A stretch of 64,000 bases of DNA from Humulus lupulus (lineage: Eukaryota > Streptophyta > Magnoliopsida > Rosales > Cannabaceae). The notes beneath the pieces are model-generated. The model was not told the origin of the DNA and ran no database searches. It saw only the letters and a program-made list of their open reading frames with translations. The translations under genes and the position numbers were made by a program. Each line of letters starts with the position of its first letter. Position 1 is the stretch's first letter. Below are positions 15,213-63,400 of the stretch, in pieces. The stretch is from NCBI RefSeq assembly GCF_963169125.1, contig NC_084797.1, forward strand, positions 99,845,868 to 99,909,867, read 5' to 3'.

Positions 15213-15234
15213 TTCTTGTGCTTTCATTGAGAGC
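15213..15234 (+). other. Primer binding site of element C
   Basis: TTCTTGTGCTTTCATTGAGA directly follows the LTR end, sharing GTGCTTTCATTGAGAG with elements A and E. The tRNA is not identified. Confidence 0.6.
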
Positions 15235-15259
15235 TTGATACAATATTGTTGAAATATCA

Positions 15260-20220: not shown

Positions 20221-20227
20221 GACTAAT

Positions 20228-21475
20228 ATGGAAATCTGGATGGAGGATACATGGATGGCACCTTACTTGGAGTATCTTACAAATGGTGTACTACCAGCAG
20301 ATAGAAATAAAGCCAGAACCCTCCAAAGGCAGGTTGCTAGGTACATACTGGTCGATGGTGTTCTTTACCGAAGAGGATATTCCATGCCACTGCTCATATG
20401 TATTACACCGGAAAAGGCTAAAGAGCTGATGAAGGAAGTACATGAAGGCTTCTGCGGGGATCACGCTGGGGGGCAGAGCTTGTCAAAAAAGATTCTGAGG
20501 CAAGGTTACTTTTGGCCGACTATGAACGAAGACTCAATGGAGTTTGTGCGAAAATGCGATAAGTGTAAGAGATTTTCCAAGATCCCACGTGTAGCTCCCA
20601 ACGAGTTAAAGCAGATGCATAGTCCTTGGCCTTTCGTAGTATGGGGTATACACTTGACTGGATCCCTGCTAACGGGAAAGGGTGGAGTTGTGGCAGTCGA
20701 CTACTTCACCAAATGGGCCGAAGCTGAGCCACTCGCTACCATAACGACCAAGAAAGTTCTTGACTTCATCATCAAGAACATTGTTTGCCGATAAGGTTTG
20801 CCTCGAAAAATTGTCTCAGACAACGACACCCAGTTTGACAGTGACTTATTCACAGACTTCTGCGAAAGACATGCAATCGTCAAAAGCTTTTCTTCAGTCG
20901 CGCATCCACAAGAAAATGGGCAAGTTGAAGCAGTGAATAAAACGCTTAAGGACACCCTGAAGAAAAGGCTCGAAGATCCTAAAGGAGCATGGCCAGAACA
21001 GTTGCCCGAAGTACTCTAGTCGTATAGAACTTCTCATCGAACAGCGACAGGTCATACCCCGTTTTCCTTAGCATACGGGTATGAAGCTATGTTGCCTGTC
21101 GAGTTAGATCCGCCCTCACATCGACGAATTACATACGACCAAGACCGGAATAGCCAACTGATGATGGAGTCTCTAGAATCACTTGAAGAGAAACGGGAAA
21201 GAGCCCAACTCCGAGTAGCTGCGTACCAGCAAAAGGTCGCCCAGTATTTTAACTCAAAGGTGAAAGAAAGAAAATTCAACGTCAGAGATATAATACTACG
21301 ACGAGTTTTCTTAAACACCCGCGACCCAACTGCTGGAGTGCTCAGTCCAAACTGGGAAGGACCTTACCAGATTGAGGAAGTCCTTCATCCAGGCACCTAC
21401 AAGCTTGCACGCTTAAATGGAGATCTCGTTCCACGCTATTGGAATGGAGAACACCTGCACAAGTATTATCAATAA
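20228..21475 (+). pseudogene. Element C integrase
   Basis: Three open pieces in one frame, split by TAA 20792 and TAG 21017. HHCC zinc-binding region: EVHEGFCGDHAGGQSLSKKI ... FVRKCDKCKRF. DDE core: VAVDYFTKWAEAEP (first Asp), KIVSDNDTQFDSDLF (second Asp), HPQENGQVEAVNKTLK (Glu), all present. C-terminal part: NVRDIILRRVF, LSPNWEGPYQIEEVLHPGTY, ending NGEHLHKYYQ. A few codons before VVAVDYF are deleted relative to element D (GKGGVKYAIVAVDYF), and GIDL has become GIHL. No chromodomain, as expected for Tat. It would insert cDNA in the nucleus; the stops disable it. Confidence 0.9.
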
Positions 21476-22149
21476 ACAGTCCTTTTTAAAGGACTAGCTT
21501 GTATTAATTTTTACTTTTTACAAGTTTCGAAAAAGGGTTAGCCACGTTGTATGGCCAATCGCTTATAAGTGTAAGATCTTTTTAAGATCACTCGTAAAGA
21601 CATGTTTAGTCCATTTTTAATACGAGATTATAAGGGACTGTGCGCAGCCAGTCATTCTTGCCAACCTTTGTAAATTTATTTTTACAAGTATTTGTTCATT
21701 ACGTGTGTTGTTTTGCTGTATTATAAGTGTTACGTTTCCTACCGAGCAGTAATGTTCGCATAGGTCGTGGTCAAGGCAAGTGACCAAGGACCTAAAGCTC
21801 CTTGATCACTTGGGGGGCATATAAGGTACATCGATAGCAAAACATACCAATAGGTATGTAAACACATGAACAAAATGAGTGAAAGCATGCTACGGTACTT
21901 AGAGTATTTTTCAAAATTTATATTTTGTTAAATCAAGCCAAAGTACTATGCTAAGTTTGGTCATGCGAACAGATGTTATAATAGACAAAAATATTATAAT
22001 ATCAAAAGGCATTCTTTTACACCACGAGCAGTACTGCTCGGATGTAATTGTTTAATTAAAAGTAAAAAGCTGCCCTTGCAGCAATAAAAAAAAATTGTCT
22101 TTACAATACGACCCGTGGGCCATGAAAACGAAATAAATAAAAAAAATTA
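21476..22149. other. Convergent spacer of element C with internal polypurine tract
   Basis: No gene. It holds the facing 3' ends of pol (+) and the antisense gene (-). At 21806-21823 TCACTTGGGGGGCATATA repeats the core of the real PPT (ACTTGGGGGGCAAA, 25554-25567). The same arrangement occurs in D at 57232-57252. Confidence 0.65.
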
Positions 22150-24730
22150 TTAAGGAGCTGGAGGATCCTGAGGATTAGGAGGAGTGCCTTGGTCAGCCGA
22201 AGGACCAGCTTCAGCATCAGCAGCAGGCACTTTGGCCTTCTCTTCTTCTTCCAGCCGGATGGCGCACTGCGCCATCAGAGTCCTCTTCAACCACTTGGAC
22301 AGGTAGTTGAAGTTGGCCTCCTGGTTGTGCTTCCAGAATTCATTGATGCAGAGGTGAGTGGCCTCCTTATACTTCTTCAAATTCTTGGCCCCGTCCTCCT
22401 CGAGCTCCTGCACTCGCTTTTCAAGCTCCCTCGTCTCCTGCCTGCTGGCGATCAGATAAAGCTCAAGCTGCTTACATTCTTGAGTGTTGAGCCTGGCACT
22501 TTCCTTGAATTTTTCCCGGGAGTCGTTGGCTTTCTTCAAGGCATCTTGGGCATCCAGAAGCTCCTTGGTGAGAGTAGCTTAGTCCTCGTGCAGTTGGTCA
22601 TTCTGTTTGGACAACTCCTTATTCTCCTCGAGCAGCTTGTTGTAATCAGCCTCAAATGCTTGCTTAGTCTGGGCAAGCCTGGAGTCGAAGTTCTTTCCCC
22701 GAGAAACCAACGCCCCAACACGGCGCCAGCCAACAGTTAAAGTTAGCAACCCCTGAAGACAAAGAATGAGATAGAGTGAGGAAAAGAAATCAGGCATAAA
22801 TGATAAAGTAGCAGGAGGTAGCTTACGCTAACTATCTCGTTAAGCCCTCTGTTGACGAATTGATCAACCTCCATTGAGGTAGTTTCAGTAATGGCGGCCT
22901 GGCTGCGTCTGTGCTTCGAGAGCTTATATATCCTCTCCCTGGTTGAGCCGACCACGAAGCTGGGCAGGGAGCCTTCGGGCGAGGTGTCCAGTGCCTCCTT
23001 GTCAGCAGCCTTAGAAGAAGGCTGTGGATTAACAGGAGTGGGAGTCGTCTGCTCGGAGGGGGGCGAAGGTGGTGAGTTCTCCTTGGAAGGGGCGGTGGCT
23101 GGAGCATCGTCTGTTCGAGCCTTCTTCGAGGGGGTCTTGCTGCTTTCCCCCCGAGCCCTTTTGCTATCCTTCTTCGGGACAAAAGAGGCTGCATTAGCTT
23201 GATAGTGCTCAAAGACGTCCTCGGAGTCCATACCTGCACAAAAGGAAGCAACACAAGCAGTAAGACTAAATGGTCATGCAGGATAAAAGAATAAAAGTAA
23301 AAGGATTATAAGTAAAGTACCCGCGCTACAACTACTGGTCGTAACATTATTTACTGAACTACCTAGTTCCTGGAAGAAATCTGAATTTAAGGGGGGAGCA
23401 TTCCTAAAGTTGCCATCCCCATCAAATAGATGAGAGGGAATTGGAAAATGATTTAAAAGCGAGATTGTTATACCATTTTCATCCGACGAGTCGTCAGAAA
23501 GTTCGATAGGCTCAGCAACCTTTTGTTTTCGTTTGCCCTCGGGGGCCAAGGGTTTCTCTGCTCGACGAGGGATGGCAGGTTCCCTGATCGTAACCCCAGT
23601 TGGTCTCCTCTGCGGAGGAGACGCTTGGGGTTGCTGCTTGGGTTCCACTTCAGCTTGGGCGTTCTCCGCCGAAGGTTCGCTCGTCGCTGGTTGAGGATTC
23701 CAGAGGCCGACCAGCCTAAGGTTAGCCTCAGTAACTAAATTTTTGACACTCTTATCAGCATTCGGCATGCTGGCTAAGAGTGCCGCCCTTGACTCCATCC
23801 CTGGAGTTGGGGTTGGACGTAACCATGGGCCTGGAACACAATGGAATGTCAAGACATTGTGGCAGAAAAACACTAAGCGAAGAAGCTAGTGGCGTAAGAA
23901 TTTTTACCTCCTTAGGTGAAGGACAGATTGTCTGCGGCTAAGTCGGGAGTAAGGAAGTATTCCTGATGATACCTCCCCACGTTGGAGATGTGAGTAGTGT
24001 CGGACAAGAAAGTGCGCCCAGTTTCTTGATGACAAAAGTGGAAGAACCCCGTGCCTTCTTGGTTAGGTTTGGACTTAAGGTCAAAGAGAAAGTTGACCTC
24101 GTGGGGAGTGGGCTTCGGCCATTTTTTAAGTTTGTAAAGGATATAGAGTGCGGCCAGCATTCTACATCCATTTGGGGTGATTTGAAAGGGGGCAACTCCA
24201 AAGTAATTCGCCACCCCCTGAAAGAACGAGTGAAGAGGCAAAGTGGCACCTGCCTCAATGTGAAACCGCGACCAGGCGCTGTAGGCCCCGCCTGGCAGGT
24301 TGGCCCTCTGGTCGATAGAAGGTCTAACCAGGGTCACCCCTGTCAGTTTATACTTATTTAAGTAGTTGGAGATCATCCGCATCGTCACTCTACTCTGGGG
24401 AACAACAGGCCACTCGACATCCGGCTGAGCAGCGTGTTGAGGACGGGCATGCCTTTATACATTGGCATCAGGAGCATTTTCACCTCGACCACTGGTCGAG
24501 GGGGCATCAGCAGTAGGCTGGCATGAGGAGTTAGGGATTTTCCTTTTTTTGAGCTTTTGTTTTTGTTCAAGCCATTCTTTGGGTTGGAACTGGAGAAGGG
24601 TTTGGGCTAGGGTGAGAGAAAGGGATATCTGGTATCAGAGTAGAGGGGTTTTCTTCGCCTTCAAGCAGCTGAGCTAGGAGGTTGTCTTTAATGGAACTTT
24701 CTCCTCCCCAAGGGTCTTGCATATGAACTG
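22150..24730 (-). pseudogene. Element C antisense gene: PF04195-like domain plus coiled coil, four coding exons
   Basis: Transcribed opposite to pol. Candidate exons: 24730-23908, 23830-23321, 23233-22827, 22752-22150, bounded by GT..AG introns of 77, 87 and 74 bp with phases 1, 1, 0, the same pattern as the D gene. First ATG after the acceptor is at 24722 (MQDPWGGESS). Exon 1 carries the conserved domain (AYSAWSRFHIEAGATLPLHS, GVAPFQITPNGCRMLA, PTPHEVNFLFDLKSKP), resembling 'putative gypsy type transposon' PF04195. Exons 2-3 are low-complexity and basic (KKDSKRARGESSKTPSKKAR, nuclear-type). Exon 4 is a long coiled coil (FEADYNKLLEENKELSKQND; TRELEKRVQELEEDGAKNLK). Two frameshifts (about 24568 and 24387), TAA 23912 and TAA near 22577 show decay. 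Function unknown; not needed for known gypsy enzymology. Confidence 0.75.
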
Positions 24731-25553
24731 TAAACAGACAAAGGAGGAGATAAGACACATAGCCTGCGGAGTTACGTGGGAGATTGGGATAACGTTGCTC
24801 GCGTCTATTGACCAGCAGCATCCTACCCATACACTAAGTTTGGTGCTAGCAGTTTGAAAAACGGATCAAAAAGGGAATAAAATGTTTTCTGAAAGGGAAC
24901 TTTTTCAACTCCTAAAGGGCTAGAAAAAACCCAGTTTTTTCAACTAGCTTAAAGATTGAATTTTTACGTTGATCTTACGCCCTAAACCTATGATCCTTAC
25001 TATCAAACTAGCTCCTAACTTATATAAAGCAGAAACACACTCTCTTACCAAGCATCAGATGGTTTATACAAAAATCCTCATAATTTTTACTCAAGAACGC
25101 AGGAAATTACAAAGCACAGTAACAGCATGCATGGCATAATGAAGAGTTTAAAAGACGAAGTGATTGCCTGGGCAAAGGTGGAGATTCAGAAGAAAAAAAA
25201 AATTTGAGTCGGAAGGATCTTCGGTAGGACGTCTGAATGATTTCGAAATTCTAGGCTCTGAAGCAAAGTTCTTGAAGTTCTTGATTGGAATGGTGAGTAA
25301 AGAATTATAAGAAAGATAAAGAGGTTACTTATAGAGGCTGAAGTATGGCAAAAAGTGGCAATCATGACTTTCCCATTTTCGAAACGTGGGGGAGTGTATA
25401 AGCCGTCGAATTGATTTCTTGAAAACCGAAAAGGCTTGATTAGACATAATTATGTCACGGTTTTCAAAAACGCACAAGGATTCTGACAGATTTCGTGGGG
25501 CATATGAACGGTTGTTTCCCTAAAGTTTCTTTATTGCTGGTCGCATTAAACAA
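24731..25553 (-). promoter_or_regulatory. Promoter and leader of the element C antisense gene
   Basis: On the minus strand a TATA box CTATAAGTAACC lies at 25334-25323, followed by a CT/A-rich leader. A donor GTAAGAGAG lies near 25050 (CTCTCTTAC on +) and the acceptor TGTTTACAG at 24731, giving a leader intron of about 320 bp before the first coding exon. The D gene also has a TATA box and leader introns. No ORF is supported here. Confidence 0.6.
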
Positions 25554-25567
25554 ACTTGGGGGGCAAA
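25554..25567 (+). other. Polypurine tract of element C
   Basis: ACTTGGGGGGCAAA immediately before the 3' LTR start TGTTATCC; primes plus-strand DNA. Core shared with the PPT of D. Confidence 0.85.
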
Positions 25568-26174
25568 TGTTATCCAAAAAACAGGCATGGATGACATGGC
25601 AGACGTTTAGTACACATGGCTGACATCTGGCAGAAGTCTTGTTCGACCATCGACCAGAAAGATGTCTGCGGCGCGACGCTCAATCTTTATATACGACCAG
25701 CTTGGTCGTATACTCGCTATATTTGGAGAGAATCTTATGCAGTTATAATCATATCCGAAGTTATCTCCCATGATTTCCTGAGTATCCGATTATTTAGGAA
25801 AGAATATCTGTAACAAATTAAATGTAATCTTCCTTGAGCCTATAAATAGAGAAAGATATCTCAAGGAAAGGATCTTTTTGCTTTCTAATTATTGGAGATT
25901 AGAGTTTTACAAGTGTATTAGAGCTATCACATTCGATATATTGTTTTGTTCTTCAGAGGTTTGTGAAACTCATTGAACCCTAGTTCTTTGATTACTCCTT
26001 TGAATCTTATATCAATAACAGCTCAAGTGGACGTAGGTTATTACCAGATTCTGGGGCCGAACCACTATAAATCCTTGTGTGCTTTACTGTTTTTGTCATT
26101 ATTCTCATTTCAACATATCTGTCCACATCAAGCAATTTTGACTCCGTGTCAGTTGACCAAAATTAGGGTCAACA
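25568..26174 (+). repeat. 3' LTR of element C (607 bp)
   Basis: TGTTATCCAAAAAACAGGC ... TTAGGGTCAACA followed by TSD ATCCC at 26175-26179. About 97% identical to the 5' LTR by hand count. Confidence 0.95.
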
Positions 26175-27032
26175 ATCCCGCATAACCGACTCTAGCTCCC
26201 AGGTCGCTTCCTTGACTTTGCTATTCCTCCATAAGACTTTAACTAGAGGAATCATCTTGTTCCTTAGAACCTTGTCATTTCTGTCTAGGATCTGCACTGG
26301 TTGCTCCTCATATGACAAGTCCGTTTGTAGCTCCAGATCTGCATATCCCAATACATGGGTCGTATCTGACACATACTTCCGTAGCATTGAGATGTGAAAC
26401 ACATCATGAATTCCTGGGGCAGCACCATTCTATAGGCTACTTGTCCGATCCTCTCTAGGATCTTAAAAGGTCCTACGAATCTACGGCTCATCTTGCCCTT
26501 CTTTCCAAATCTCTTTACTCCCCGCAATGGCTAAACTCGCAGAAATACGTGGTCCCCTACCTAGAACTCCATGTCCCTATGCTTAGGGTCATCGTATCTT
26601 TTCTGTTTGCTTTGGGAAGAGAGCATTCGAGCTCAGATCTTTTCAATAGCTTCATTAGTCTTCTGAACCATCTATGGACCCAAATACTTCCTTTCCCCCA
26701 TCTCATCCCAATGAATGGGCGATCTACGCTTCCTTCCATACAACATATCGTATGGAGCTACTCCAATTGTTGACTAGTAACTGTTATTGTATGAGAATTC
26801 AATCAATGGAAGGTACTTACTCCAAGACCCCTCGAAGTCTATCACACATGCTCTAAGCATGTCCTCCAACATCTGAATTGTCCTCTAAGACTGCCCGTCT
26901 GTCTGAGGATGAAAGGCCGTACTGAACTTCAACTGAGTCCCCATAGCCTTCTGTAAGCTACCCCAAAACTTGGAAGTAAATATGGGATCCCGGTCTGATA
27001 TTATAGACTTTGGAACCCCATGGAGACGTACA
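26175..27032 (-). pseudogene. Element F integrase core, C-terminal domain and chromodomain
   Basis: Minus-strand reading: [20 protein letters not shown] (integrase second Asp), [10 protein letters not shown] then a stop where the catalytic Glu of GQSERT belongs, VAPYDMLYGRKRRSPIHW, FVGPFKILERIGQVAYRM. Then the chromodomain region: FHISMLRKYVSDTTHVLGYA, LSYEEQPVQILDRNDKVLRN, IPLVKVLWRNSKVKEATWEL. Several stops and a frameshift near 26400 are present. The chromodomain should direct insertion to marked chromatin. Its last codons continue at 14606 across element C. Right edge: TSD ATCTC of the LTR at 27038. Confidence 0.88.
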
Positions 27033-50079: not shown

Positions 50080-50969
50080 GTTTACCGAGCTTTTCGGAAA
50101 CGAATACAAACTGAATGATAAAAATATAAGAACTGTAGAAGTGCTGAAATGTAACTAAACAAACAGTGTTTTTACGTGGTTCAGGCGTTAACAAGCCCTA
50201 GTCCACGAGTCGATGTTATTATACTTGGAAAAGGTTACAGTAAGATGGCTGGTGTACAAGAACTTCACACACTCACAGTGTTTCTCTCGGGTTCTCTTGA
50301 AGAAGATGAAGCTAGAGAGATTTTGGTAGAGTTCTTGCTATATGATTTGTTCGCCCTCCCTCTTCTTGTAAAATGAAGGGGTCTTTATATCTAGGGTTTT
50401 GGATTAGGGTTTTTCTCTACGTACATGAGTCTTAATTACCCCAGCCATAAATAGGGGATACAATTACTGTAGTAGCATGGCTACAAGACTCTATGTGGGT
50501 ATATTTACGTGAAAGTATGGGGAACACACAAAGTCAGCCGTCTTTTCCAAGTTGTCAGCGGAACAGTAGGCGAAAAGGTACTCTTAGGCGTGCTGGGATG
50601 TGTGCGGCTTTGACCTGACGGGCGTGTCAGGCGGGATCCTGTGTCAGGTGGATATCATTCCAAATACGCCTCCTCCATGACTCGACCGCTTGGTTTTGTT
50701 CCGTGCGAGGCACGGAACTGTTTCCGCGGAGACCACTCGAAGAGCTTCTCCTGGAAGGGGCTTCCCCGAGGGATACCCCTTCGGGAGTCCGGGAGAGTTG
50801 ACGAGATTTTCGTATCGTGTTTTGCTTGGAAGAGTAATCCGGACACTAAACGGGAGAGGCGAAGCCTTTCTGTCCATCCGCGAGCTCTGGTCACCTATCG
50901 TGAAAGACATCGATAATTCTGCTTCCCCGAGGACATCAATCTAAACGCCATCCGGAAATCTGGATAACA
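50080..50969 (-). repeat. 3' LTR of element D (890 bp)
   Basis: On the minus strand TGTTATCCAGATTTCCGG ... CTCGGTAAACA; on + TGTTTACCGAGC ... TCTGGATAACA. TATA AGATATAAAGAC on minus at 50392-50381, so R starts about 50360. U5 inverted repeat ACGTGG (50174-50179) / CCACGA (50203-50208). Overlapping ORFs on both strands at 50641-50944 lie in GC-rich U3 and are not genes. Confidence 0.92.
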
Positions 50970-50985
50970 TTTACCCCCCAAGGTC
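50970..50985 (-). other. Polypurine tract of element D
   Basis: On minus GACCTTGGGGGGTAAA directly before TGTTATCC, with the CTTGGGGGG core of the element C PPT. Confidence 0.85.
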
Positions 50986-51919
50986 ACGGAGCTTGTGCAG
51001 TCCTCCGGGTATTTCGGTCTCTTAGATTAGGCGAGGGGCCACTTTCTGTGTTCCCGGAAGGGTTCCTTTTTCCCGCCTGAGTGTTAGTATGAAAAAGAAA
51101 GGGAATTTCTTCTGTTTGAACTCAAGTACTCAAGTGCGGCAAGGACCACGTGTCATGCTGGGAATGGTTCTGCGACCAAGACGTGTGCGTGAGGCGACTG
51201 GTTGAGTATGCGTGCGTCAGTCATCTGAGTAATGATTTGACAGTTTTTAATGGTACTCCGGGCCCGAGGTGGTGTAATGATGGGAAATAAATACTTTATT
51301 CCCATCCGAGGAGTCATAAATAGGATCGTCGCTTCATCTCCAGCCGTTGGATCTGATGCACACGGAATGGGAAGATCGGGACCGTCTATTTGAGGAATTC
51401 GAAACGACTTCTTCCCTGCTATAAAAACGAGGGAAAGGACCTTTCTTCCTCTTTACGCTTTCAAATTCTCTATCTTTCAGTTTTTCAGATTTCCAAACCT
51501 TCGAACTCTCAGGCTTCTCAGCTTCCGTTCCTCCGAACTTGCCACTTCTTTTGGTAAGGATCTGGAAACTTTTCTTTTGATCTGGCAGTGGGTTTATTCG
51601 CCGAAGTTCATGGTGTGAATCGCCGTTCGTCTTTGCAGCTTTTACTCCTCGCGATCGTGTTGTGCAGTGATCCGGTTACTCCTTCAACCTCCAACTACCC
51701 GAATATCAGTAAGTATTTCTACTTTGCTCTTTCCTCCCAAACCTTAGGTTGTTGGTAGTTGTTAGAGTTGGGGTTTCTGCCATTATCGCGTATGTGCATG
51801 CGTGAATAGGGCTTTGGTAGGCATGTGATTGATGTGAGTCGATAAGTAGCCTTTTTTGCATGCTTTGACGATTTGCGTTTGGAAAGTCGTTCTTTGTTTT
51901 GCTGTTTTAGGGCATAAGC
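50986..51919 (+). promoter_or_regulatory. Promoter and spliced leader of the element D antisense gene
   Basis: Plus-strand TATA box TATAAAA at 51420-51426, then a CT-rich leader. Candidate leader introns: 51554-51638 (GTAAGGATC ... TTTGCAG) and 51709-51910 (GTAAGTATT ... GTTTTAG). The first in-frame ATG after the second acceptor is 51920. Nothing coding is seen between the LTR and the TATA box. Confidence 0.65.
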
Positions 51920-54900
51920 ATGAACGCCTTTAGGGTGTCTTTCTCTGGAAAAACACTTCTTTTGGTGGGCTTAGGCTCGGAGTCTGAGTCTGGTTCCTTG
52001 CTGCCCCTCGGGTGGCATGGCGCCAATCCCTCGGTAAGCTCGGTGGGAGCCTCTCCAAGCAGTTTTCGGGGAGGGTCTCCCCGACACCTTTGATACCACT
52101 AGGGTATGACAAGGGTGCTGACTGCTTAGAGTGTTTTCTTCTCTCTTTCTTTTGTCCAGTGACGAACATCTCAAAGGAACAACTCCTTGCTGTGGGGGAG
52201 GCTGATTCTGCCCAGGAGAAGGGTTCCCCTGTCGCTGGTGCAAAGGGGAAAGGAAAGGCGAAAGTGGTCGCGGCTAGCCCACCGACTTCCAATAGTTCAA
52301 TCTGGGAGATGGACCAAAAGCCGAACCTTTTCAGGAATTATGGCATGCTGGAGCTGTATTCCTCCGAGGCAGGCCTGAAGAACATCCCAGGTCTGATGTG
52401 GCACCGTCTGTCGGTGCTGGGCGAGTCGGCCAGCCAGAGTCACGAGGGCTTTGGTGCCTGGAGCTGGGCACACATAGTGTGTGGGGCGCACTTGCCCCTA
52501 AGGAGTTACTTTTCCAATTTCTGTGTGAAGGCGGGGATTGCCCCCTTCCAGTTGATTCCTCCCAGCTACAAGCTCCTAGCGGGGTGGTTCATCTTTTGCA
52601 AGTCCCGAAAACTGGAAGCTCCTACTCCGGAGGAGGTGCTGTACTTCTACGGGTTGAAGTCTCAGCCTATGAGGGGTCATTCAGACAAGGTGGGGTTTTA
52701 CAGGTTGGAAAGGCACCCGGACGTGATGTGTCCCACCTGTCATACCGCGAGGGTTCCAGACCTCCGGGAGTACTGGTTCCTGACGACTGGCTTTCCGCTG
52801 AAGAGGGTGCCAGCCCTATCTTTGGACTTCAAAATCCCTGGTAAGTGCTCCTTTCTCTCCTTTTCAACTTTGTTTCTTTGCGTTTGATTTGCTCTTTGGG
52901 AGGATCTCTAATGCTTGTATTTGAATTTTGCAGAAGTCGTTCCGCGGACACCTCGCTGTGCGGAGATGATAAGGAGGTCCAAGTTCTACGAAGGGCTTTC
53001 GGAGGAAGAGCTGAAAGTGGAGGGACTTGTGACCTCCGAATCTTTGAGGGAGTATGGGCTACTCGCCTCTTTCCAAAACATCGAGCCAGTGAGTGGCAGG
53101 GGGCAAAGTCAGGTGTCCGCTGACATCCGGGAGCAGATCGCTCTGGAGCTGTCTAAGGTGATCACCCAAGCAGCCCGGGACGAGAATACTTTATCTCCTA
53201 GTTGGGCGAAGAGGTTCCCCGACCCCCAGCCGGAGGAAGAGGAGATCGAGGCCCGCCACGCCGCGGCTTACCCTAACGAAGGGGCTCCGGGGGCTAGCAC
53301 CTCCGGGAGAGGTAAGACTAGTTTTCGATTGATCCACACCCCCAGCCTGTCTGAGGTTTCCCGGACCTCTCAGATGGGGTTCGATCCCCGCTTCCTTAGG
53401 CTAGATCCGCGTAGGATACCCTTTGACAGATATTGCGATAGGGTAGATGAGCTCCTCGGGTGTCTGAGTGACGGTAGTCTGCCAGAAGGTGTCATCATGG
53501 TTGACCCTTCTTCCCTCAGCATGTCATTCCCGGACTTCAAGGAGTACGGGAGCTTCCTGGAGCAGGAAGCGGTGTTTTGTTTTGCTCGGGGAAGGCCATC
53601 CACGCTTCTCGTGCATGGTCGTCCCTTTTAAACTTTTCTTTTTCTTGTTTCTTGTTCCCTGCTGGCGGGCTTGCTTGTGCTTTTATGTTGTTGATTGTCT
53701 TGTCTTTCGCTTATCTTCTTTCTCATTGCTTGTTGGTTCGCTAACCTTGCTTTGTATGTTTCTTGCAGAGTATCCAGAAGCCAAGATGTTGGGGAGGGTT
53801 ACTTTGCTCAATAAGAAGGCTGCCACCAGCCAAGACCCGTCCACGGGGAAAGGACGGAAGACCAAGGCTGGTAGGGGAGGTAAAGCTGCCACCCCCAAGA
53901 AGACAAGTGGCGAGGCGCAAGCATCTCCGGAGGTAGAGAAATCTCCTGCTGACGGGCCTTCCGAGACTATGATGATCTCGAGTAGCAGCAGCGACGGGGA
54001 AGGGCTTGTATTTCCCGTGAAGACAACTGGGGTGAGCAAGCGTCCCGGAGAAGATGCTGAGGGTGCTAATAAGAAACGCCTTAGACACTCTTCTCCTGGT
54101 CGAAGGCAACAACAACAGCAACGACAGCAACCACAACTACAACAACAGCAGCAACAAGAACAACAGAGGCGATCACCAACGCCACAGCGGCAGCAACAAC
54201 AACGTCCAAACCAGCAGCAGCAACAAGGGCAATTACTTCCGCTGCCGCAGCAGCAAAAGCAACAGACCGGGGCCTTAATACCCCGGCTGCCTCCTCCTCC
54301 GGCCCAAAAGGGGTCCACCCTTTCGGGGTCTTCTTCTTCTCAGCTAACAAACCTTCCTCTGCCTGGCCTGAAGTTCCACTTCCCTCGGAAGCCAACCAGT
54401 TTCCCCGCTGCCCTCCTGGAGGGTGTAAGACGGGCCGCTAGTTTTTTGAAGAGGCGGTTAGAGGCGGAGAAGGCTGTTACTCAGGGAAGGGCAGATAACT
54501 TGTCTGCCGTGAAGAGAGCTGAGCTGGCCGAGGGGGTGAGATCCCTTCACCCGGCCGGAGTGGTTTTGGATGGCCCAGCCTTGGAGAAGAGGCTGGTGCC
54601 TAGGCTCGGACGTGCATTGGCGCCGTTCGGAGCTGAGATGATGGAGGACATGGCCCTGAGCTTGTGTGAGCTCAATTATGAGAAATGGGCCATCAGTAGC
54701 AGTAAGGATCCACTGTTGCTGACACACGCTGTGAAGCAGCAACTGTCCGGGGTAGGCCGTCAGTTGCGTTTTGGGATCACTTGTCTTAGCACATTTGGTT
54801 CTGCTTAACTCATTCTGTTATCTTTCCTTGCAGGCCTCTATGATAGCGGAACGCTCGTTCCGGGAGGTTGGCGCAGTTCTGGTTCAGTTGGAGGAGAGCC

Positions 54901-55856
54901 AGCTGGCTCGCCAGGCCTTAGAGGCGGAGAAGCAGAAACTGACCCAACAGGCCTTGGAGGCTTCGGAGAAGATTGATCAGGACCGGCGCACGGCTGAGGA
55001 AGAGGCGGACAAGAAATATCTTGCCAAATACCAAGAGTACCGGGCCAAGGCAGAGAATGAGTTCAGTCAGCGGTCGGATGAGATGAAGGCCGAAAACTCC
55101 AAACTCCGGGAAGAGCTGTCCCAAGCCAGGGTGGAGAAGGATACCTTGGAAGCCCGCTTGCAAGCGAAAAATGATCTCGTCCTTAAGCAGCAAGGGGAAT
55201 ATTCCACTCTTCAGAATAAGCTGCACGAGGAGGAGCAACTTCACAAGAGGAGCAGGGATCTCGTGTCTATGCTGGAGTTGGGGATCGCCGAGAAGGATAA
55301 AGAGATCGGAGCCTTGCAATTCACTGCCAAGGGGCATGTGACCGAGAAGCAATCCGTGCTAAACCAAAACAAGGAGCAGCGCAAGGAGATTGATTCTCTT
55401 AAGGGAGAGCGGGATGCCTCCAAGGCCGAAATGGGAAAATTGAGGGCTCAACTAACTGTCGCGGAGGCACAGCTGGCAACCTCCGAGGCGGAGCGCTTGA
55501 AGGAGAAGGAGGATGCTGAGGTGATACTGAACAGGATGATTAATATATCACATGTGGTCCTCATGCATCAACTCTGGAAAGTGAACCCGGAGGTACTAGG
55601 CTATCTGGGAGATGATGCCGAAGCCATGAGGGAGAAGCTACTCGTGTGGGATCAAGGCCCAGAGGCGTACGTCCAAACTTACAACATTGACGAACGTGCT
55701 GGAGCTCCTGAGGCGGGAGATCCCGGAGAGGCGGGGACCTCTGAACCTTCCCGTGACAAAGTTCCGCCTTCCAACGAGCCGACTCCGCCAGCCTCAGTTG
55801 AAGCCGATGCCCCCGCAGCCGCGGTCGTGGAAGCTGCAGCTACTCCCAATGCTTGA
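51911..55856 (+). CDS. Element D antisense gene: PF04195-like domain, polyQ and coiled coil
   Basis: Runs opposite to gag-pol. Exons: 51911-52033 (ATG 51920; uncertain junction), 52160 or 52177-52840, 52934-53617, 53769-54751, 54834-55856 (TGA). The last three introns (93, 151, 82 bp; GTAAGTGC..TTTGCAG, GTCGTCCC..CTTGCAG, GTAGGCCG..CTTGCAG) have phases 1, 1, 0, as in element C. Domain 1: GAWSWAHIVCGAHLPLRSYF, GIAPFQLIPPSYKLLAGWFI, PTPEEVLYFYGLKSQP, aligned with C and resembling PF04195. Middle: basic, Ser-rich stretches (NKKRLRHSSPGRR) and a Gln-rich tract (54104-54270). Exon 5 is a long coiled coil (KAENEFSQRSDEMKAENSKL; IDSLKGERDASKAEMGKLRA) with an acidic Pro/Ala tail. No stop interrupts the exons from 52160 on. 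Probably nuclear and self-associating; function unknown. The 5' start is uncertain because phases of exon 51911-52033 fit only the 52177 acceptor. Confidence 0.78.
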
Positions 55857-56499
55857 AGGGGTTTTATCTCTAATTATTTTTCATTTTGAGTTTTTCATTG
55901 CGGACATATTTGCCATAATTATAGCATTCTCCTTTCTTTTCTGCCGAGTTCTTTATTTATCTTTGCGCTTAGGGTAGACTTTTATACGGTAGAAACTGTT
56001 GTAGGGGCGTATGAGGTTTGGTTCCAACGGCCAAGACCTATGCACTTCCCACTTGAAGCTCTAACGGCTGATGTCTTTTCCCACGTAGTTTCTAGGTTAC
56101 GAAGGTTTCCTGGTTCCAACGGCCAGGCTCCTTTCACCGTATTTTAGCTTTCCTAAGGCAGATAGCCAATCCCGAGACTTGCAGTTATACTGTTCGCTGG
56201 GATTGCTAAGGTGAGCCGTTCCATGGTTTGGAACGGGAGTTCTTTTGGTGAGCGTCGCTAGACTTAAGGTTAGATCTTTGCGAAGCAAAACTAACCGTTG
56301 TTGCGAACCTCATGGTGGCTGACTTCAGGGACCTGGCATGGAGCCCTGCGAGGCAAGGCTCGTTGCTGTCGGGGAAATCGCCACGCCCACCAGGTGTGAT
56401 CCCGGAGCAGGGGCTTTGCGAAGCAAGGCCTGCTGTGAGTGGTGGATCGACCATGTCTGCTCCTGGAGCTGAAACTTGCAATGGTCGAGGAGCTCGCCA
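55857..56499. other. Convergent spacer of element D
   Basis: Between the stop of the antisense gene and the repeat array. AT-rich first 120 bp (possible 3' end and poly(A) region of the antisense transcript), then GC-richer sequence with repeated GGTTCCAACGGCCA (56020, 56110). No supported ORF. Confidence 0.5.
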
Positions 56500-56912
56500 T
56501 GCATTATTTTGTGAGATCCGGAGCTGGAGCCTGCGAAGCAAGGCTTACAACGGTCGCGGATCTTGCCATCTTTCGCCTTGCGGGACCCGGAGCTGGAGCT
56601 TGCGAAGCAGAGCTCTACAGCGATCACGGGTCTTGCCATCTTTCGCCTTGCGGAACCCGGAGCTGGAGCTTGCGAAGCAAAGCTCTACAGCGATCGCGGA
56701 TCTTGCCATCTTTCGCCTTGCGGGACCCGAAGCTGGAGCTTGCGAAGCAAAGCTCTACAGCGATCGCGGATCTTGCCATCTTTCGCCTTGCGGGACCCGG
56801 AGCTGGAGCTTGCGAAGCAAAGCTCTACAACGATCGCGGATCTTGCCATCTTTCGCCTTGCGAGACCCGGAGCTGGAGCTTGCGAAGCAAAGCTCTACAG
56901 CGATCGCGGAGT
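56500..56912. repeat. 70-bp tandem repeat array, about 5.7 units
   Basis: The unit beginning TCTTGCCATCTTTCGCCTTG recurs at 56561, 56631, 56701, 56771 and 56841, with a weaker copy before. Each unit contains GAGCTTGCGAAGCAAAGCTC, which can fold as a stem (GAGCTTGC / GCAAAGCTC). Since 70 is not a multiple of 3 and no unit frame holds a stop, the array is open in all three plus frames, giving spurious ORFs of 150-217 codons. Confidence 0.93.
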
Positions 56913-57231
56913 ATTCTGCAAAGGACTTGTCAGGGAGTTGGGGGTGTTTTGGCGTAGCTCTATGAACGTGCCTCAACCCCCAGTCCTGTCCATCGCTGGG
57001 CTAAACAGGAGATAATTTTCATGATACATAATGGCAGGCATTTCCATGGCAATTTTCACATAAGCACATAATGCACATATGACACGTAATGCAAGCATGT
57101 TCATGGCAACAAATAAACCTAAGCTTAACAATTTAAACATTTCAAACAATTTAAAAATTTCAAACACAATGCTAGCACATAAGTGGTGTTCTGTGTACGT
57201 TTTGTTCAAGGGGCGTATGGCTATGCCTTAG

Positions 57232-57252
57232 CCATGTATACCCCCCCAAGTG
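57232..57252 (-). other. Internal polypurine tract of element D
   Basis: On minus CACTTGGGGGGGTATACATG, about 215 bp past the pol stop; core shared with the 3' PPT (CTTGGGGGGTAAA) and with the internal tract of element C (21806-21823). It could prime extra plus-strand synthesis, or be a relic of an older 3' end. Confidence 0.65.
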
Positions 57253-57464
57253 AGCGTGGGGTCCGGACGTCTCCGGACCGCGTGGTCACTTGTTAAAACG
57301 CAGCTTTGAACACAGGGATAGAAAGTGCAGTAAAAGCGGAGTGAATCTCTCCGTGTTTCATTAAATTAGCCTGCTAGGCGTGAGTTTTACAACAGGGAGG
57401 ATTATTTCCACATTTTTCACTTTTCCTAATTTCACCAAGGACTTCCGACTAGATGGTCCGGGGC
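57253..57464 (-). other. 3' untranslated stretch after element D pol
   Basis: Non-coding sequence between the pol stop and the internal polypurine tract; no structure beyond short purine runs. The stretch 56913-57231 on the other side is AT-rich with repeated CATTTCAAACAATTTAAA-type runs and no ORF. Confidence 0.5.
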
Positions 57465-60458
57465 CTACTGGTAGTAACGGCGGAGGTGCTCCGCGTTCCA
57501 GGCGCGCGGGACTTTAGATCCGTCGAGTCTCTTTAAGTGATACGTCCCGTGGCCCACTTTTTCTTGGACTTCGTAGGGGCCTTCCCAGTTGGGTCCGAGG
57601 ACTCCGACTCCCGGATTCTGCGTAGCAGGAAATACTCTCCGTAGGACAAGATCCCCAACTTCGAATGTACGGCTCTTGACTCTCGTGTTAAAGTGTCGGG
57701 CTATCTTGCCTTGGTACATTTTTAGTTGGACCTGCGACTGCTCCCGGAGCTCTTCGATCATGTCCAAGGACTCCTGGAGAAGGGCATGGTTCCGGGTAGG
57801 GTCGTAGGTATCTTGCCTGTGAGAGGGGATCATAGTTTCTACAGGGATGACGGCCTCGCAACCGAAGGTCATGGAATAAGGCGTGTGCCCCGTCGAAGTT
57901 CTCTCTGTTGTGCGATAGGCCCAAAGTACTCGCGGAAGTTCTTCCGGCCAGTGAGCCTTGCAGGCTTGGAGTTTTTTCTTCAACGTGGTCTTTAATATTT
58001 TGTTTACAGCCTCCACTTGCCCATTAGCCTGGGGTCTGGCGACTGCGGAAAAGCTTTTGATAATTCCATGCGAAGCACAGAAGTTCGTGAAGTGTTCACT
58101 GTCAAATTGCTTTCCGTTGTCGGACACAATTTTTCGTGGAAGCCCAAAACGACACACTATATTCCTGATGACAAAGTCCAGTGCTTTTTCAGATGTGACC
58201 GTGTTCATAGGTTCGGCTTCAGCCCATTTGGTGAAGTAGTCTACTGCGACTATGGCATACTTCACTCCACCCTTTCCAGTTGGGAGGGAACCTACTAGGT
58301 CAATGCCCCAAACGGCGAACGGCCAGGGGCTGGTCATTAAGGTAATTTCTGTAGGCGGCGCTCGCGGAACCTTGGCGTACCTCTGGCACTGCTCACATTT
58401 CCTGACATAATCCACACAATCCTTCTTCATGGTGGGCCAGAAGTATCCTTGTCGAAGGATCTTTTTGGAGAGGCTCAGCCCGGAGGTATGATCGCCACAG
58501 AAGCCTCCGTGAACCTCATGGATGATGGTGCTGACTTCGGTTCTGGAAACACACCTAAGAAAGGGTATGGACAACCCCCTGCGGTAAAGCTTTCCATCCA
58601 TAACCACGTATCGGGGAGCTTGATACTGGAGCTTTCTTGCGTCAGCTTTATCAGTGGGGAGCTCTCCGGTGGTGAGAAATCTGAGGATGGGCCCTATCCA
58701 GGAATGGGAATGGTCGATGATGGCGTTTATCCTTCGTGTCTCAGTACTGGGGGCTTCTAAGTGCCCGATGGGGACTGGGCCATACTGTTCAATCTCCGGG
58801 TCCGTTGCAAGCTTGGCCAGCGTGTCCGCGAGTGAGTTCTGGTCCCGGGGGACCTGGCGGATTTTGTAGCCTTTGAAATGTTGCAGTAGGTCGCGGGAGA
58901 GAGACACGTAGGCAGCCATTCTTTCGCCTTTCGTCTGGTATTCCCCGGATATTTGGTTTACCACAAGTAGGGAGTTGCTGTATACTTCAATTTTTTGGAC
59001 TCCGACTTCTCTGGCCAGTCGTAATCCAGCTAACATGGCTTCGTGTTCTGCCTCGTTGTTGGATGCTGGGAACGCGAAACGGATGGCACTCTGGAGCTGA
59101 TGCCCTTGGGGAGATATTAAGATGACCCCTGCTCCAGCTCCTTTTTCATTCGAGGCTCCGTCTACGTAGACCTTCCAGGTGGGAAGTTCCGGGACAGGAT
59201 CTTCCGGGAGGTCGTTCATTCCCGAGCATTCCACAATAAAGTCCGCGAGAGCTTGACCCTTTATGGAAACACGTGGTTGGTAGTGGACGTCGAACTGGCT
59301 CAGTTCCATGGCCCACTTAAGCAATCTGCCAGAAGACTCGGGCTTCTGCAAGACTTGTCGGAGAGGGTGGTTGGTGAGTACTTTGATGGTGTGCGCCTGG
59401 AAATATGGCCTTAGCTTCCGCGAAGCAATTAGCAAGCAGAGGGAGAGTTTCTCGATCATTGAATACCTGGACTCGGCGTCCAGTAACCTCTTGCTTACGT
59501 AATACACAGGGAGCTGGATACGGCCATCTTCCTGGACGAGAGCGGCACTTACTGCGTGCTCTGTCACAGCTAAGTATAAGAACAACGCCTCTCCTTCGAC
59601 AGGTTTGGACAGAATGGGAGCTCGGGTCAAATGTTCCTTGAGGTGTTGGAAGGCTGCTTCGCATTCGGGGGTCCACTCGAACTTTTTGTTTCCTCGCAAC
59701 ACGTTGAAGAAGGGGATACACTTGTCAGTGGCCTTGGATACGAAGCGGCTGAGAGCAGCTATCCTTCCGGTAACACTCTGGACATCCTTATGCTTCCGGG
59801 GGGAAGGCATATCTATGAACGCCTTAATTTTCTCAGGGTTGGCTTCCACTCCGCGGGAGCTGACAATGAAACCGAGGAACTTCCCAGACGAGACCCCGAA
59901 AGTACATTTCTTTGGACTCAGTTTCATTCCGTACTTTCGGATCACGGCGAAAGCTTCCTCAAGGTCGTCACTGTGGTCCCCGGAGGTCTTGGACTTTACC
60001 AACATGTCGTCCACGTACACCTCCATGTTCCTCCCCAGTTGGTCCTTGAACATCCTGTTTACTAGACGCTGGTACGTCGCCCCAGCATTCTTCAAACCGA
60101 AAGGCATGACCACGTAACAGTAGACACCTTTGTCCGTGAGGAAGCTGGTGTGTTCCTGGTCCGCGACATGCATCTTGATCTGGTTGTATCCGGAGTACGC
60201 ATCCATGAAGGATAAGAGTTCATACCCGGAAGTAGCGTCTACCATCTGATCGATTCGCGGAAGAGGGAAACAATCTTTCGGGCAGGCTTTGTTTAGGTCT
60301 GTGAAGTCAATGCACATTCTCCAGGACCCATCGGGTTTCGGGACCAGAACTGGGTTGGCCAACCACACGGGATAGTGTGACTCCTGGAGAAAGCCTATGG
60401 ACATCAACTTGTCCACTTCAGCTCTGACGGCTTCGGCCCTCACTGGGTCTAACGGCCT
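57465..60458 (-). CDS. Element D pol: RT, RNase H, second RNase H, integrase (upstream end broken)
   Basis: About 998 uninterrupted pol codons on minus from FRPLDPVRAEAVRAEVDKLM to HLRRYYQ and stop. RT: ANPVLVPKPDGSWRMCIDFT, FMDAYSGYNQIKM, YVDDMLVKSK. Gypsy RNase H: ALFLYLAVTEHAVSAALVQE, VYYVSKRLLDAESRYSMIEK. Second RNase H: WKVYVDGASNEKGAGAGVIL, SNNEAEHEAMLAGLRLA, then EVYSNSLLVVNQ, where the third catalytic Asp (YSDS in element C) is Asn. DQNSLADTLAKLA follows. Integrase: EVHGGFCGDHTSG, CEQC, AIVAVDYFTKWAEAEP, IVSDNGKQFDSEHF, NGQVEAVNKILK (DDE complete), GPNWEGPYEVQEKVGHGTYH. It was continuous with gag-protease until the 252-bp insertion at 60459-60710. The first 26 codons of the open frame come from that insertion. 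Confidence 0.93.
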   Translation of the reverse strand, partial: RPLDPVRAEAVRAEVDKLMSIGFLQESHYPVWLANPVLVPKPDGSWRMCIDFTDLNKACPKDCFPLPRIDQMVDATSGYELLSFMDAYSGYNQIKMHVADQEHTSFLTDKGVYCYVVMPFGLKNAGATYQRLVNRMFKDQLGRNMEVYVDDMLVKSKTSGDHSDDLEEAFAVIRKYGMKLSPKKCTFGVSSGKFLGFIVSSRGVEANPEKIKAFIDMPSPRKHKDVQSVTGRIAALSRFVSKATDKCIPFFNVLRGNKKFEWTPECEAAFQHLKEHLTRAPILSKPVEGEALFLYLAVTEHAVSAALVQEDGRIQLPVYYVSKRLLDAESRYSMIEKLSLCLLIASRKLRPYFQAHTIKVLTNHPLRQVLQKPESSGRLLKWAMELSQFDVHYQPRVSIKGQALADFIVECSGMNDLPEDPVPELPTWKVYVDGASNEKGAGAGVILISPQGHQLQSAIRFAFPASNNEAEHEAMLAGLRLAREVGVQKIEVYSNSLLVVNQISGEYQTKGERMAAYVSLSRDLLQHFKGYKIRQVPRDQNSLADTLAKLATDPEIEQYGPVPIGHLEAPSTETRRINAIIDHSHSWIGPILRFLTTGELPTDKADARKLQYQAPRYVVMDGKLYRRGLSIPFLRCVSRTEVSTIIHEVHGGFCGDHTSGLSLSKKILRQGYFWPTMKKDCVDYVRKCEQCQRYAKVPRAPPTEITLMTSPWPFAVWGIDLVGSLPTGKGGVKYAIVAVDYFTKWAEAEPMNTVTSEKALDFVIRNIVCRFGLPRKIVSDNGKQFDSEHFTNFCASHGIIKSFSAVARPQANGQVEAVNKILKTTLKKKLQACKAHWPEELPRVLWAYRTTERTSTGHTPYSMTFGCEAVIPVETMIPSHRQDTYDPTRNHALLQESLDMIEELREQSQVQLKMYQGKIARHFNTRVKSRTFEVGDLVLRRVFPATQNPGVGVLGPNWEGPYEVQEKVGHGTYHLKRLDGSKVPRAWNAEHLRRYYQ

Positions 60459-60710
60459 AAACAGAATGATAAAAATATAAGAACTGTAGAAGTGCTGAAA
60501 TGTAACTAAACAAACAGTGTTTTTACGTGGTTCAGGCGTTAACAAGCCCTAGTCCACGAGTCGATGTTATTATACTTGGAAAAGGTTACAGTAAGATGGC
60601 TGGTGTACAAGAACTTCACACACTCACAGTGTTTCTCTCGGGTTCTCTTGAAGAAGATGAAGCTAGAGAGATTTTGGTAGAGTTCTTGCTATATGATTTG
60701 TTCGCCCTCC
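60459..60710 (-). repeat. Copy of the element's own R-U5 LTR segment inserted in pol
   Basis: Matches 50108-50359 of the 3' LTR over 252 bp with one difference seen (T50112 / A60463), no indels, same orientation as the element. Its upstream end (60710 = 50359) falls about 30 bp past the LTR TATA box, i.e. at the expected RNA start; the other end is 28 bp short of the U5 end. It sits between the codons IRQKRR and RPLDP with only CCT (AGG) repeated at the edges. It adds stops to the gag-protease frame. Confidence 0.92.
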
Positions 60711-63400
60711 TCTTTTGGCGAATTGGAGTTGCAGATGGGTCTATGTTGAGTGCGTGGCATGCAACATTAGGATTAATCCCCGTCATATCAGCGTGGCACC
60801 ATGCCAGGATATCCTGATTATTCTTTACAGTGGCCACAATCTTTTCTCGAACGGCCGACGAGAGGTTTTTCCCCACCTGAATGACTTTGGTGGGATCTCC
60901 TGGGTTGAGGACCACCTCTTCGACTTCCTCCATCGGTTCTATCACTCTCTCGACCCCCACTCTAGGGTCGAGTTCATCAAAGCGTGCCCCTTGAGCACCC
61001 CCAGTCTCTGGTAACTCTTCCATCAAAGGAATGGCAGCAACCGTCTCCTGGACCGTGTAAACGGATCGGACGGAGACGTTATAACAGCTTCGTGCACTTC
61101 GTTGGTCTCCTCGGAGGGTGCCAATACGCCCATCGTCGCACGGAAACTTTAAGCACAAGTGGCGTATCGAGGTTATGGCCCCACAATCTATTAGGACCGG
61201 TCGGCCTAGGATGGCATTATACGCCGTGGGGCAGTCGACCACCACGAATGTGCAGTGCTTGAAGGCACAGGCGTCACTTTCTCCTCTGAGGGTGACTGGA
61301 AGTTGAATCTTGCCTAATGGCATGAGTGCATCCCCATTGAACCCTTGAAGCTGGATGGGGCATGGGGTCAGGTCTGTCTCGGTTAATCCGATCGCGTGGA
61401 AGGCCGCTTTGAAGAGGATGTTTACGGAGCTTCCGTTATCGACCAAGATCCGTGAGACCTTCTTATTGGCAATCTGGGCTTCCACCACGAGGGGATCGTT
61501 GTGGGGGAAGTGCACATGTCGAGCATCGTCCTCCGTGAAGGTGATGGGAAGATCCATCATTCGGGGACGTTGAGCAGGTGATTGAACCAAGGCGCACATC
61601 TCCCCGGTGTGTTCTAACTCCCTCAAGTATCTCTTCTGGGAGTTGCGGGTGCTTCCGGCAAGGTGCGGTCCTCCGGAAATGGTGGCTACGTGTCCGTCAA
61701 TGGGTGGCGGAGCAAGGCCGGGCGGATATGGGTTGCCAGGTCCTGGAGCCAACAAGGCAATGGGTGCCGGAGCGGCTGGAGCAGGAAGCGCTGGGAACTG
61801 AGACCCGGGAGCTTGGGGGTGACCGGCTCCAGGAGCGCTAGCGGTCCCCCTCTGTCCCGGGGAATATGCAGCTCCGTGAACTACTCCCTGTCCAGGATAG
61901 ATAATGGGTATCCTCACCCACTGACTGAGGTGTCCCGCTCTTGCCAGGGACTCGATCTCATCCTTCAGCTGAAGGCACTCATTCGTGGTGTGCCCCACGT
62001 CCCCGTGGAACTCACACCTCTTATTGGAGTCTCGCGGACGCCTTCCTCCGTGAGACACTTTTGGGGGCTTCCTGTAGTTGACCATATTACAGGTCGCCCG
62101 ATAGACATTCTCTCGCGAGTCTATCAAACTGGTATATTCCGTGAACTTGGGCTCATAGTCCTTCCGGGGTTTCTTTGAATGGTCTCCCCGGTTGGAGTTT
62201 CTTCCGCTTCGTTTGCTCCGCGATTGGCTCAAATTTCGTTCTGGGCCTTCCGCTTGCGACTGCGGCATGCCAGGAGCGATACTACATCCGGTTTGTACAG
62301 TTCCGTACCCAGAGAAATGGGTTTGACTCGGCGTCTGAGCAGACGCAGAAGGCCCATACACACTTGGAGTGAATTGGGCTCCTGGAAGCGTGAGGGCTGG
62401 TGCGGGAGCTTGCGAAGCAAAGCTCGGCGCAGTCATGGAAGGCGCTGGAGCCGGGGGAACTCCAAAGGCCTGCTGGTAGGCATCCTCAAGGTTGATGATT
62501 CCCTGAGCTTTTGACATGAATTCGGACAGCGTTTCTGCTCGTCTCCTTTGCATTTCCCCCCATAGCAGGGAGCCGACAGTAAGGCCCGATTGAAGGGCGA
62601 TCAGCTTCATGTCATCGCTGACCTTGGTCTTTGCAGCAGCTTCCATCATTCTCTGAATGAAAGCTTTGAGGTTCTCATTGGGCTGCTGCTTGATGTTGGT
62701 TAAGGAACCAACCTCCATGTCGTGGTCGCGGGCAGCAATGAACTGTCTCCTAAACGCGGACTGTAGCTCCTTCCAACTGTGGATTGATCCGGGAGCTAAT
62801 CTTTTCCACCAGTCCTCCGCGGACTTGGTAAGGGTGAGTGAGAAGCACATGCATTTGGCGTCCTCACTGACACGCGCCACTTGCATCATTTTGTTGTATT
62901 TAGCTAGGTGGGTACGCGGGTCCGTCCTCCCATCATATAATTCTATGTGAGGCATTTTGAAGTTATCCGGGAGGGACGTTTCCGCGATCCTCCGAATACA
63001 TGGTTCCGGGTCTTCCTCCTCAGAGTCTGACAGGGCCCCACTTTGCTTTCGGACCAGCTTGGTCAAGGCAGCAATCTGTTCCTCGAGCCTCTTCGTATCA
63101 CTCTCCGGGAGGTCACGTCCCCGGAGCTTATCATTAATATGATTTCGGAGGTCATCTCCGCGAGGCCGGGCCTTTTCTCCTTTGGCCTTTTCATACTTGG
63201 CCTCCAACCTTCTTCTTAGGTCCACCGTGGACCAGCTATCTTCGGAGTGCGAGTTCGCAGCCCGACCGTCCTGGTTGACGGAATCACTGGGGCGGTTGTT
63301 CCTTCCCCTAGGCCTGGGTGCCTTAGCACCGGGCCCTTTAGGCACGGAGTGCCCCCTTGGGGCTGAAGGACGTCTGGGCTTAGGAGCGCCAGAGACCTTC
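60711..63400 (-). CDS. Element D gag and protease
   Basis: About 890 codons, no stop. Basic N-terminal region ([35 protein letters not shown]), helix ([35 protein letters not shown]), capsid domain ([55 protein letters not shown]), Pro/Ala-rich linker, nucleocapsid knuckle [14 protein letters not shown] (C-x2-H-x4-H-x4-C). Then [20 protein letters not shown], protease [14 protein letters not shown] (Asp-Asn-Gly), [14 protein letters not shown], linker [18 protein letters not shown], ending at [13 protein letters not shown] before the inserted LTR piece. Originally one frame with pol. Gag forms the particle; protease matures it. Its N-terminus is separated by a poly-C tract and a stop. Confidence 0.9.

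Follow-up and report, generated by a model that had tools for sequence, protein, structure and literature searches.

A predicted multi-exon antisense gene with a split start codon in a probable Retand-type retrotransposon of hop

The antisense gene of element D

The window analysed here is a stretch of 64,000 nucleotides from hop, Humulus lupulus (contig NC_084797.1, positions 99,845,868 to 99,909,867 of the forward strand), whose right part is occupied by element D, a minus-strand Ty3/gypsy retrotransposon that extends to the right edge of the window. Between the integrase and the 3′ long terminal repeat (LTR) of this element lies a plus-strand gene of six predicted exons with a product of 1,123 amino acids (Table 1). 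A preliminary description of this DNA had proposed a gene antisense to pol at this site, with a TATA box at 51420, leader introns, a frame that is still open, and coding introns at 52841-52933, 53618-53768 and 54752-54833 in phases 1, 1 and 0. This architecture was borne out: Pfam places pol on the minus strand, TATAAAAA starts at the position given for the TATA box, the coding introns have the proposed places and phases, and the joined coding frame contains a sole stop, the terminal one. Leader introns are likewise predicted; we now place them at 51554-51638 and 51709-52159, with the second one splitting the ATG.

Several properties of the sequence distinguish the proposed exons from their surroundings. 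The four longest open plus-strand stretches between 52160 and 55856 comprise 446, 366, 241 and 239 amino acids (sum 1,292), as compared to at most 307 for the longest stretch and at most 626 for the four longest summed in 300 first-order Markov simulations. The fraction of T amounts to 0.35-0.52 in the introns versus 0.17-0.23 in the coding exons, and the two occurrences of GTAAGT on the plus strand of 51000-56000 are both predicted donors (51709 and 52841). Moreover, the codon usage of the proposed frame shows the best correlation of all six frames with the gag and pol of the element (0.64 and 0.53). We consider the antisense gene of element D to be almost certainly real.

Table 1. Coordinates of the features discussed (positions within the window; ".", no strand assigned).
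Feature	Positions	Strand	Basis or remark
TATA box, antisense gene	51420..51427	+	TATAAAAA, read directly
Leader exon 1	51450..51553	+	start approximate, taken as TATA + 30; without ATG
Leader intron 1, 85 nt	51554..51638	+	GTAAGG...TTTGCAG
Leader exon 2	51639..51708	+	without ATG; ends in the A of the divided ATG
Leader intron 2, 451 nt, splits ATG	51709..52159	+	GTAAGTATT...TTTTGTCCAG
Coding exon 1: N-terminus and divergent PF04195 (Transposase_28) region	52160..52840	+	tblastn to element A; homologues
Coding intron 1, phase 1	52841..52933	+	same phase in element A; ungapped crossing by P0019 and, for the element A family, P0016
Coding exon 2	52934..53617	+	relatives P0026, P0027, P0028; Cannabis P0029, P0030, P0031
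Coding intron 2, phase 1, weak donor GTCGTC	53618..53768	+	same-phase intron in element A
Coding exon 3: basic Ser/Gln-rich stretch, then conserved segment (aa 653-780)	53769..54751	+	
Coding intron 3, phase 0	54752..54833	+	same phase in element A
Coding exon 4: coiled-coil-like segment and C-terminus	54834..55856	+	stop 55854-55856
70-bp tandem array, 5.6 copies, 94% matches	56518..56910	.	between antisense gene 3′ end and integrase
pol of element D (RT, RNase H, RVT_3, integrase)	57465..60545	-	Pfam
gag and aspartic protease of element D	60616..63345	-	Pfam
Polypurine tract adjoining 3′ LTR, element D	50969..50982	-	by eye
3′ LTR of element D	50108..50968	-	left end accurate to within a few bases
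Homologous antisense gene of element A, decayed, in-frame stops	22150..24727	-	upstream end by eye

A homologous gene in element A

A second copy of the gene is found in element A, a complete element with a plus-strand pol (14607-26177; LTRs 14607-15215 and 25568-26177, 96.9% identical) that is flanked by a 5-bp target duplication, ATCCC. The motif CTATAAG is also present upstream of this copy, and its three coding introns have the phases 1, 1 and 0 as in element D, an agreement expected by chance in 1 of 27 cases. At the protein level, exon 1 of D matches element A over 112 residues with 36% identity (tblastn, E 7e-15); a sensitive blastn search of the same region gave no match at E 0.1. Across these 112 codons the identity amounts to 0.54, 0.51 and 0.27 at codon positions 1, 2 and 3 (Fisher p 9e-6), a pattern that is somewhat favoured by the selection of the alignment on protein similarity: Positions 1 and 2 are conserved, and position 3 is close to background. 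For comparison, pol of the two elements is 65% identical over 564 aligned residues (codon positions 0.70/0.82/0.34), and because the identities within the antisense gene are lower than these, it evolves faster than pol. From the splice acceptor onward, exon 2 aligns ungapped with a score that 0 of 20,000 shuffles reach, and among 14,060 offsets the four best are the exact register and its three neighbours; the length of this anchored test (42) was picked post hoc, when the alignment had already been seen. The shared intron phases and the codon-position pattern argue for maintenance of the gene, in line with the maintained function that had been suggested for it.

Relatives and family membership

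Relatives of the gene, numbered P0001 onward, were collected by several searches. A profile of exon 1 of D and A retrieved 25 proteins at E ≤0.01 (1,078 candidates) and a search with exons 1-2 retrieved seven (7,999 candidates scored); the full-length D protein found no relative at E 0.01 among 7,984 scored candidates, and scans of viral and prokaryote contigs yielded no relative of the antisense gene. The family assignment is reached through intermediates. The open reading frame (ORF) of element A matches PF04195 with 30.6 bits (cut-off 26.2, E 4e-7), and P0010, which shares 47% identity with D across 183 residues, scores 23.5 bits, marginally below the same cut-off. Since element A passes and matches D, and P0010 bridges, D is by transitivity a divergent PF04195 relative, and its gene very probably belongs to the antisense PF04195/Transposase_28 family.

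The remaining relatives bear on the exon structure. Exon 2 is 97%, 84% and 79% identical in P0026, P0027 and P0028, and P0003, from Humulus lupulus, shares 90% identity with element A across 180 residues. Cannabis sativa contributes P0019, P0029, P0030 and P0031, which we assume to be gene predictions, the listing being silent on how they were made. P0030 aligns to pieces of exons 1-4 in order, P0029 to exons 1-3 in order and P0031 to two exons, with gaps close to the exon junctions in some of these alignments; the conserved segment of exon 3 is matched in P0029 with E 2e-25. Ten exon 1 relatives with tails were inspected at coding intron 1. Six of them (P0001, P0002, P0003, P0004, P0010, P0015) continue into the intron and show GK at the place of the donor, as GGTAAR would read; P0011 and P0017 depart from GK there. 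P0019 crosses the junction ungapped, by alignment, and P0016 does so at intron 1 of the element A family (score 410 joined vs 344 unspliced). The latter comes from a 684-base ENA contig and could represent either a transcript or a copy that lacks the intron. P0001 and P0002 were also considered as spliced products and ruled out, as both continue into the intron.

These comparisons also bear on the idea that the gene is a decaying relic that happens to be still open in a young copy. The stops in the element A gene would fit such decay, as would the gag-pol of D, which is already broken by insertion of an LTR fragment. However, the conservation spans families, beyond the D copy alone, and several relatives retain long open frames, which makes a relic hardly credible.

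A start codon predicted to be split by a leader intron

Removal of leader intron 2 would join A51708 to TG52160-52161 and thereby generate an ATG. No ATG precedes this A/TG junction in the spliced leader: All nine other ATGs listed for 51400-52160 fall within the two leader introns. In the unspliced sequence, 51988 is where the frame of exon 1 becomes open, and an in-frame ATG first occurs at 52309, about 49 codons inside the conserved frame. Because the ATG forms at the junction, translation from the proper start would need the removal of leader intron 2.

We inspected this site in six relatives, judging from protein letters and, for P0021 and P0022, aligning by eye upstream of the core; other upstream-extending relatives, e.g. 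P0031 and those of the element A type, were left out of this check. The four of the six that extend upstream (P0002, P0013, P0021, P0022) all have V at the place of the split ATG, the expected reading of GTG in AG/TG, and the preceding residue could in every instance be encoded by a codon with a final A. P0001 and P0005 start with M at this place, which fits a GTG start chosen by a bacterial gene finder. The four upstream-extending relatives are compatible with a split start codon.

A further explanation is that the antisense RNA is what matters, with the protein being secondary: Convergent transcription would pair this RNA with the sense RNA and thereby feed small interfering RNA production or block packaging. 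The gene indeed lies antisense inside the region expected to be spanned by a full-length sense RNA, and double-stranded RNA was raised as a possible role in a 2020 review (PMC7264820). An RNA-only role, however, leaves unexplained the codon-position conservation, the shared intron phases and the split start codon with which the relatives are compatible, so that we regard it as quite improbable.

Features of the encoded protein

The middle of the protein, within exon 3, is basic (net +16 over aa 480-660) and Gln-rich, as the preliminary description had put it, and exon 3 contains a bipartite match resembling a nuclear localization signal (NLS), KRPGEDAEGANKKRLR, with KRARGESSKTPSKKAR in element A's own exon 3. 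A proline-free run of 254 residues lies mostly in exon 4, whose crude heptad excess (0.36) exceeds that of the other four segments compared (0.21-0.29). This measure, which is crude and short of a proper prediction, suggests that exon 4 forms a coiled coil, and the long coiled coil claimed earlier is described here as a coiled-coil-like tail. In an AlphaFold model of exon 1, a partial three-helix core is located at about aa 115-163 (pLDDT, predicted local distance difference test, about 64-75); sequence and fold searches of solved structures gave no match.

Proposed role and mechanism

With a probability of roughly 75%, we favour the explanation that the gene is an antisense accessory gene (PF04195/Transposase_28 kind) of a Retand-type, Tat-clade retrotransposon and acts through a nuclear accessory protein. 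The sequence itself establishes an open spliced frame, a second family whose coding introns agree in order and phase, and conservation of the exon 1 protein; a DNA- or chromatin-directed role of the D protein in the nucleus is a tentative proposal to which we would give slightly less than even odds. For this role we favour as a basis the nuclear product and the own-promoter transcription published for Grande (PMC7264820), the predicted DNA binding of PF04195 (PMC11963269), the basic stretch and the coiled-coil-like tail.

Mechanistically, RNA polymerase II would start at the internal TATA box, the host spliceosome would excise the two leader and three coding introns, and the proper start would become available to the ribosome upon loss of leader intron 2. 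In an antisense gene the introns would survive retrotransposition because they are reversed in the sense genomic RNA and hence not spliceable there; a sense-oriented intron would be spliced from the genomic RNA and lost over successive cycles. Survival of introns through the RNA cycle solely in this orientation would be a simple reason for the orientation of the gene. The protein is probably nuclear, given its basic stretch, would oligomerise via its coiled coil, and would most likely act in trans on the DNA or chromatin of the element; candidate steps would be transcription, evasion of silencing and the handling of the pre-integration complex. A more far-reaching idea, which we deem unlikely but worth stating, is that a fixed multi-intron gene has been part of Retand elements for a long time, being viable in a retrotransposon only when antisense, and that the splicing-dependent start serves as a timer or strand switch. 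If true, the split ATG would restrict the protein to integrated, transcribed DNA in the nucleus, with splicing as a check for a nuclear regulator.

A number of observations weigh against the favoured explanation. The gene model of the D copy is built on sequence, and DNA binding by the D protein is a proposal. The donor of coding intron 2, GTCGTC, is weak; by reading, an alternative donor 3 bases downstream also keeps the frame, and since P0026-P0028 retain the letters HGRP at this donor, the weak site may be normal in the element D family. The PF04195-like domain that had been assigned to D stands through relatives (element A, P0010) and is undetectable in D's own exons, and the suggested check by a hidden Markov model search passes for the element A homologue and fails for the D copy: Pfam reports no PF04195 match for exon 1 alone, for a joined sequence of exon 1, exon 2 and part of exon 3, or for the closest relatives of D, P0001 and P0002. 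The AlphaFold model of exon 1 is poor overall (mean pLDDT 44.7). Among 2,000 shuffles each, a bipartite NLS-like match also arises in 287 for exon 3 of D and in 54 for that of A, and because shuffles reach it, the motif of either element is weak when taken singly. The match of P0030 to exon 4 (E 2e-6) concerns coiled-coil-like sequence and was obtained with the low-complexity mask off. Finally, the D/A alignments outside exon 1 are weak: When aligned freely, exons 2 and 4 reach local scores that fall inside the span of 200 shuffles (exon 2: 37 vs a shuffle mean of 33.7), and that of exon 3 (61) is slightly below the shuffled maximum (63). When anchored at its start, exon 4 is equalled by 45 of 20,000 shuffles over 22 residues (rank 1,316 of 56,604 offsets) and by 203 of 20,000 over 30 residues (rank 3,142 of 52,700), and conservation of the position of intron 3 therefore rests mainly on phase and order.

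Relation to known retrotransposons

The order RT (reverse transcriptase), RNase H, second RNase H (aRH) and INT (integrase) in element D is that of the Ogre/Retand branch of the Tat clade within Ty3/gypsy; the aRH between RNase H and INT is described as the mark of this branch (PMC6317226). By its second RNase H, element D is a member of the branch, a rule that covers both lineages, and the label Retand rather than Ogre would rest on the antisense PF04195-type gene. The region between pol and 3′ LTR spans about 6.5 kb (50969 to 57465) and holds the antisense gene and the 70-bp tandem array, and element D thereby combines the long region and the antisense ORF that characterise Retand elements, for which 2,933-6,566 bp are given in a survey (PMC11963269). 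Retand is described as abundant in hop (PMC10614002).

That extra ORFs of Tat elements such as Grande are known had been pointed out before and holds true. It also lowers the surprise, as 97% of the clusters formed by recently active Retand elements are reported to have antisense PF04195 genes (PMC11963269); the domain had been given for 23% of Retand elements in an earlier survey (PMC6317226). The figure of 97% also bears on the notion that a host gene, or a reversed fragment of another mobile element, was captured and is passively carried. Multi-intron genes are usual in hosts, and plant LTR retrotransposons are described as generally without introns, with Ogre and EVADE as exceptions (2025 review, PMC12786077). 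Against capture, the same gene occurs at the same position, in the same orientation and with the same intron phases in two diverged families. This sharing and the 97% of Retand clusters therefore point to ancient shared ownership, and passive carriage is accordingly less credible still than the RNA-only role, even though the first origin could have been a capture.

As a published feature of Retand, the antisense gene itself has close counterparts. The TRP28/PF04195 antisense ORFs of Retand (Vicient 2025, PMC11963269) resemble the D gene in orientation, location between pol and 3′ LTR and family; the elements of this survey also have tandem arrays in the same region, and some have Smc-like matches. 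They are described there as plain ORFs found by ORF Finder, whereas for D a multi-exon model with a split start codon is supported; the split start codon and the element A homologue are what is added here. The maize Grande gene23 is likewise an antisense accessory gene, reported in the review PMC7264820 (citing Gomez-Orte 2013) to have its own upstream promoter and a nuclear product; D shows a TATA box and an NLS-like motif, and the likeness is drawn at the level of description. By description in the same review, Silene Retand ORF4, said to have pfam04195, and the rice RIRE2 antisense ORF share position and orientation with the D gene. HBZ of human T-cell leukemia virus 1 (HTLV-1), an antisense retroviral product named in PMC11963269, is a functional analogy, as a nuclear regulator encoded antisense in a retroelement, for which we claim no homology.

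The word intron has 0 occurrences in the main text of the 2025 survey (PMC11963269) and of the 2020 review (PMC7264820), the latter of which calls for a search for spliced antisense transcripts. Among the titles and abstract openings returned by our literature search, none describes introns in the antisense Retand gene; prior publication is possible. Retrotransposons that carry antisense PF04195 genes are abundant in plants, and the role of the D protein is a proposal. A plain ORF search fragments such genes and can miss the start; the multi-exon model gives the full protein and makes RNA tests simple.

Further features of element D

Within pol of element D, Pfam places RVT_1 at 68-228, RNase H at 291-418, RVT_3 at 462-580, H2C2 at 668-724 and rve at 742-838. 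Retrotrans_gag exceeds the Pfam cut-off, and Asp_protease_2, with 23.0 bits, is slightly below its cut-off of 24.3. The LTR end and the polypurine tract are nearly identical to those of element A; the partner LTR lies beyond the window. The tandem array sits between the 3′ ends of two convergent genes, the antisense gene and pol.

A 256-bp copy of the element's own LTR end (50108-50364) is found at 60459-60714 inside gag-pol with 99.2% identity. It is located between protease and RT, where the frame is broken, and it spans from about 25-30 nt past the LTR TATA box to about the LTR end. The copy looks like R-U5, as from strong-stop complementary DNA joined by template switching.

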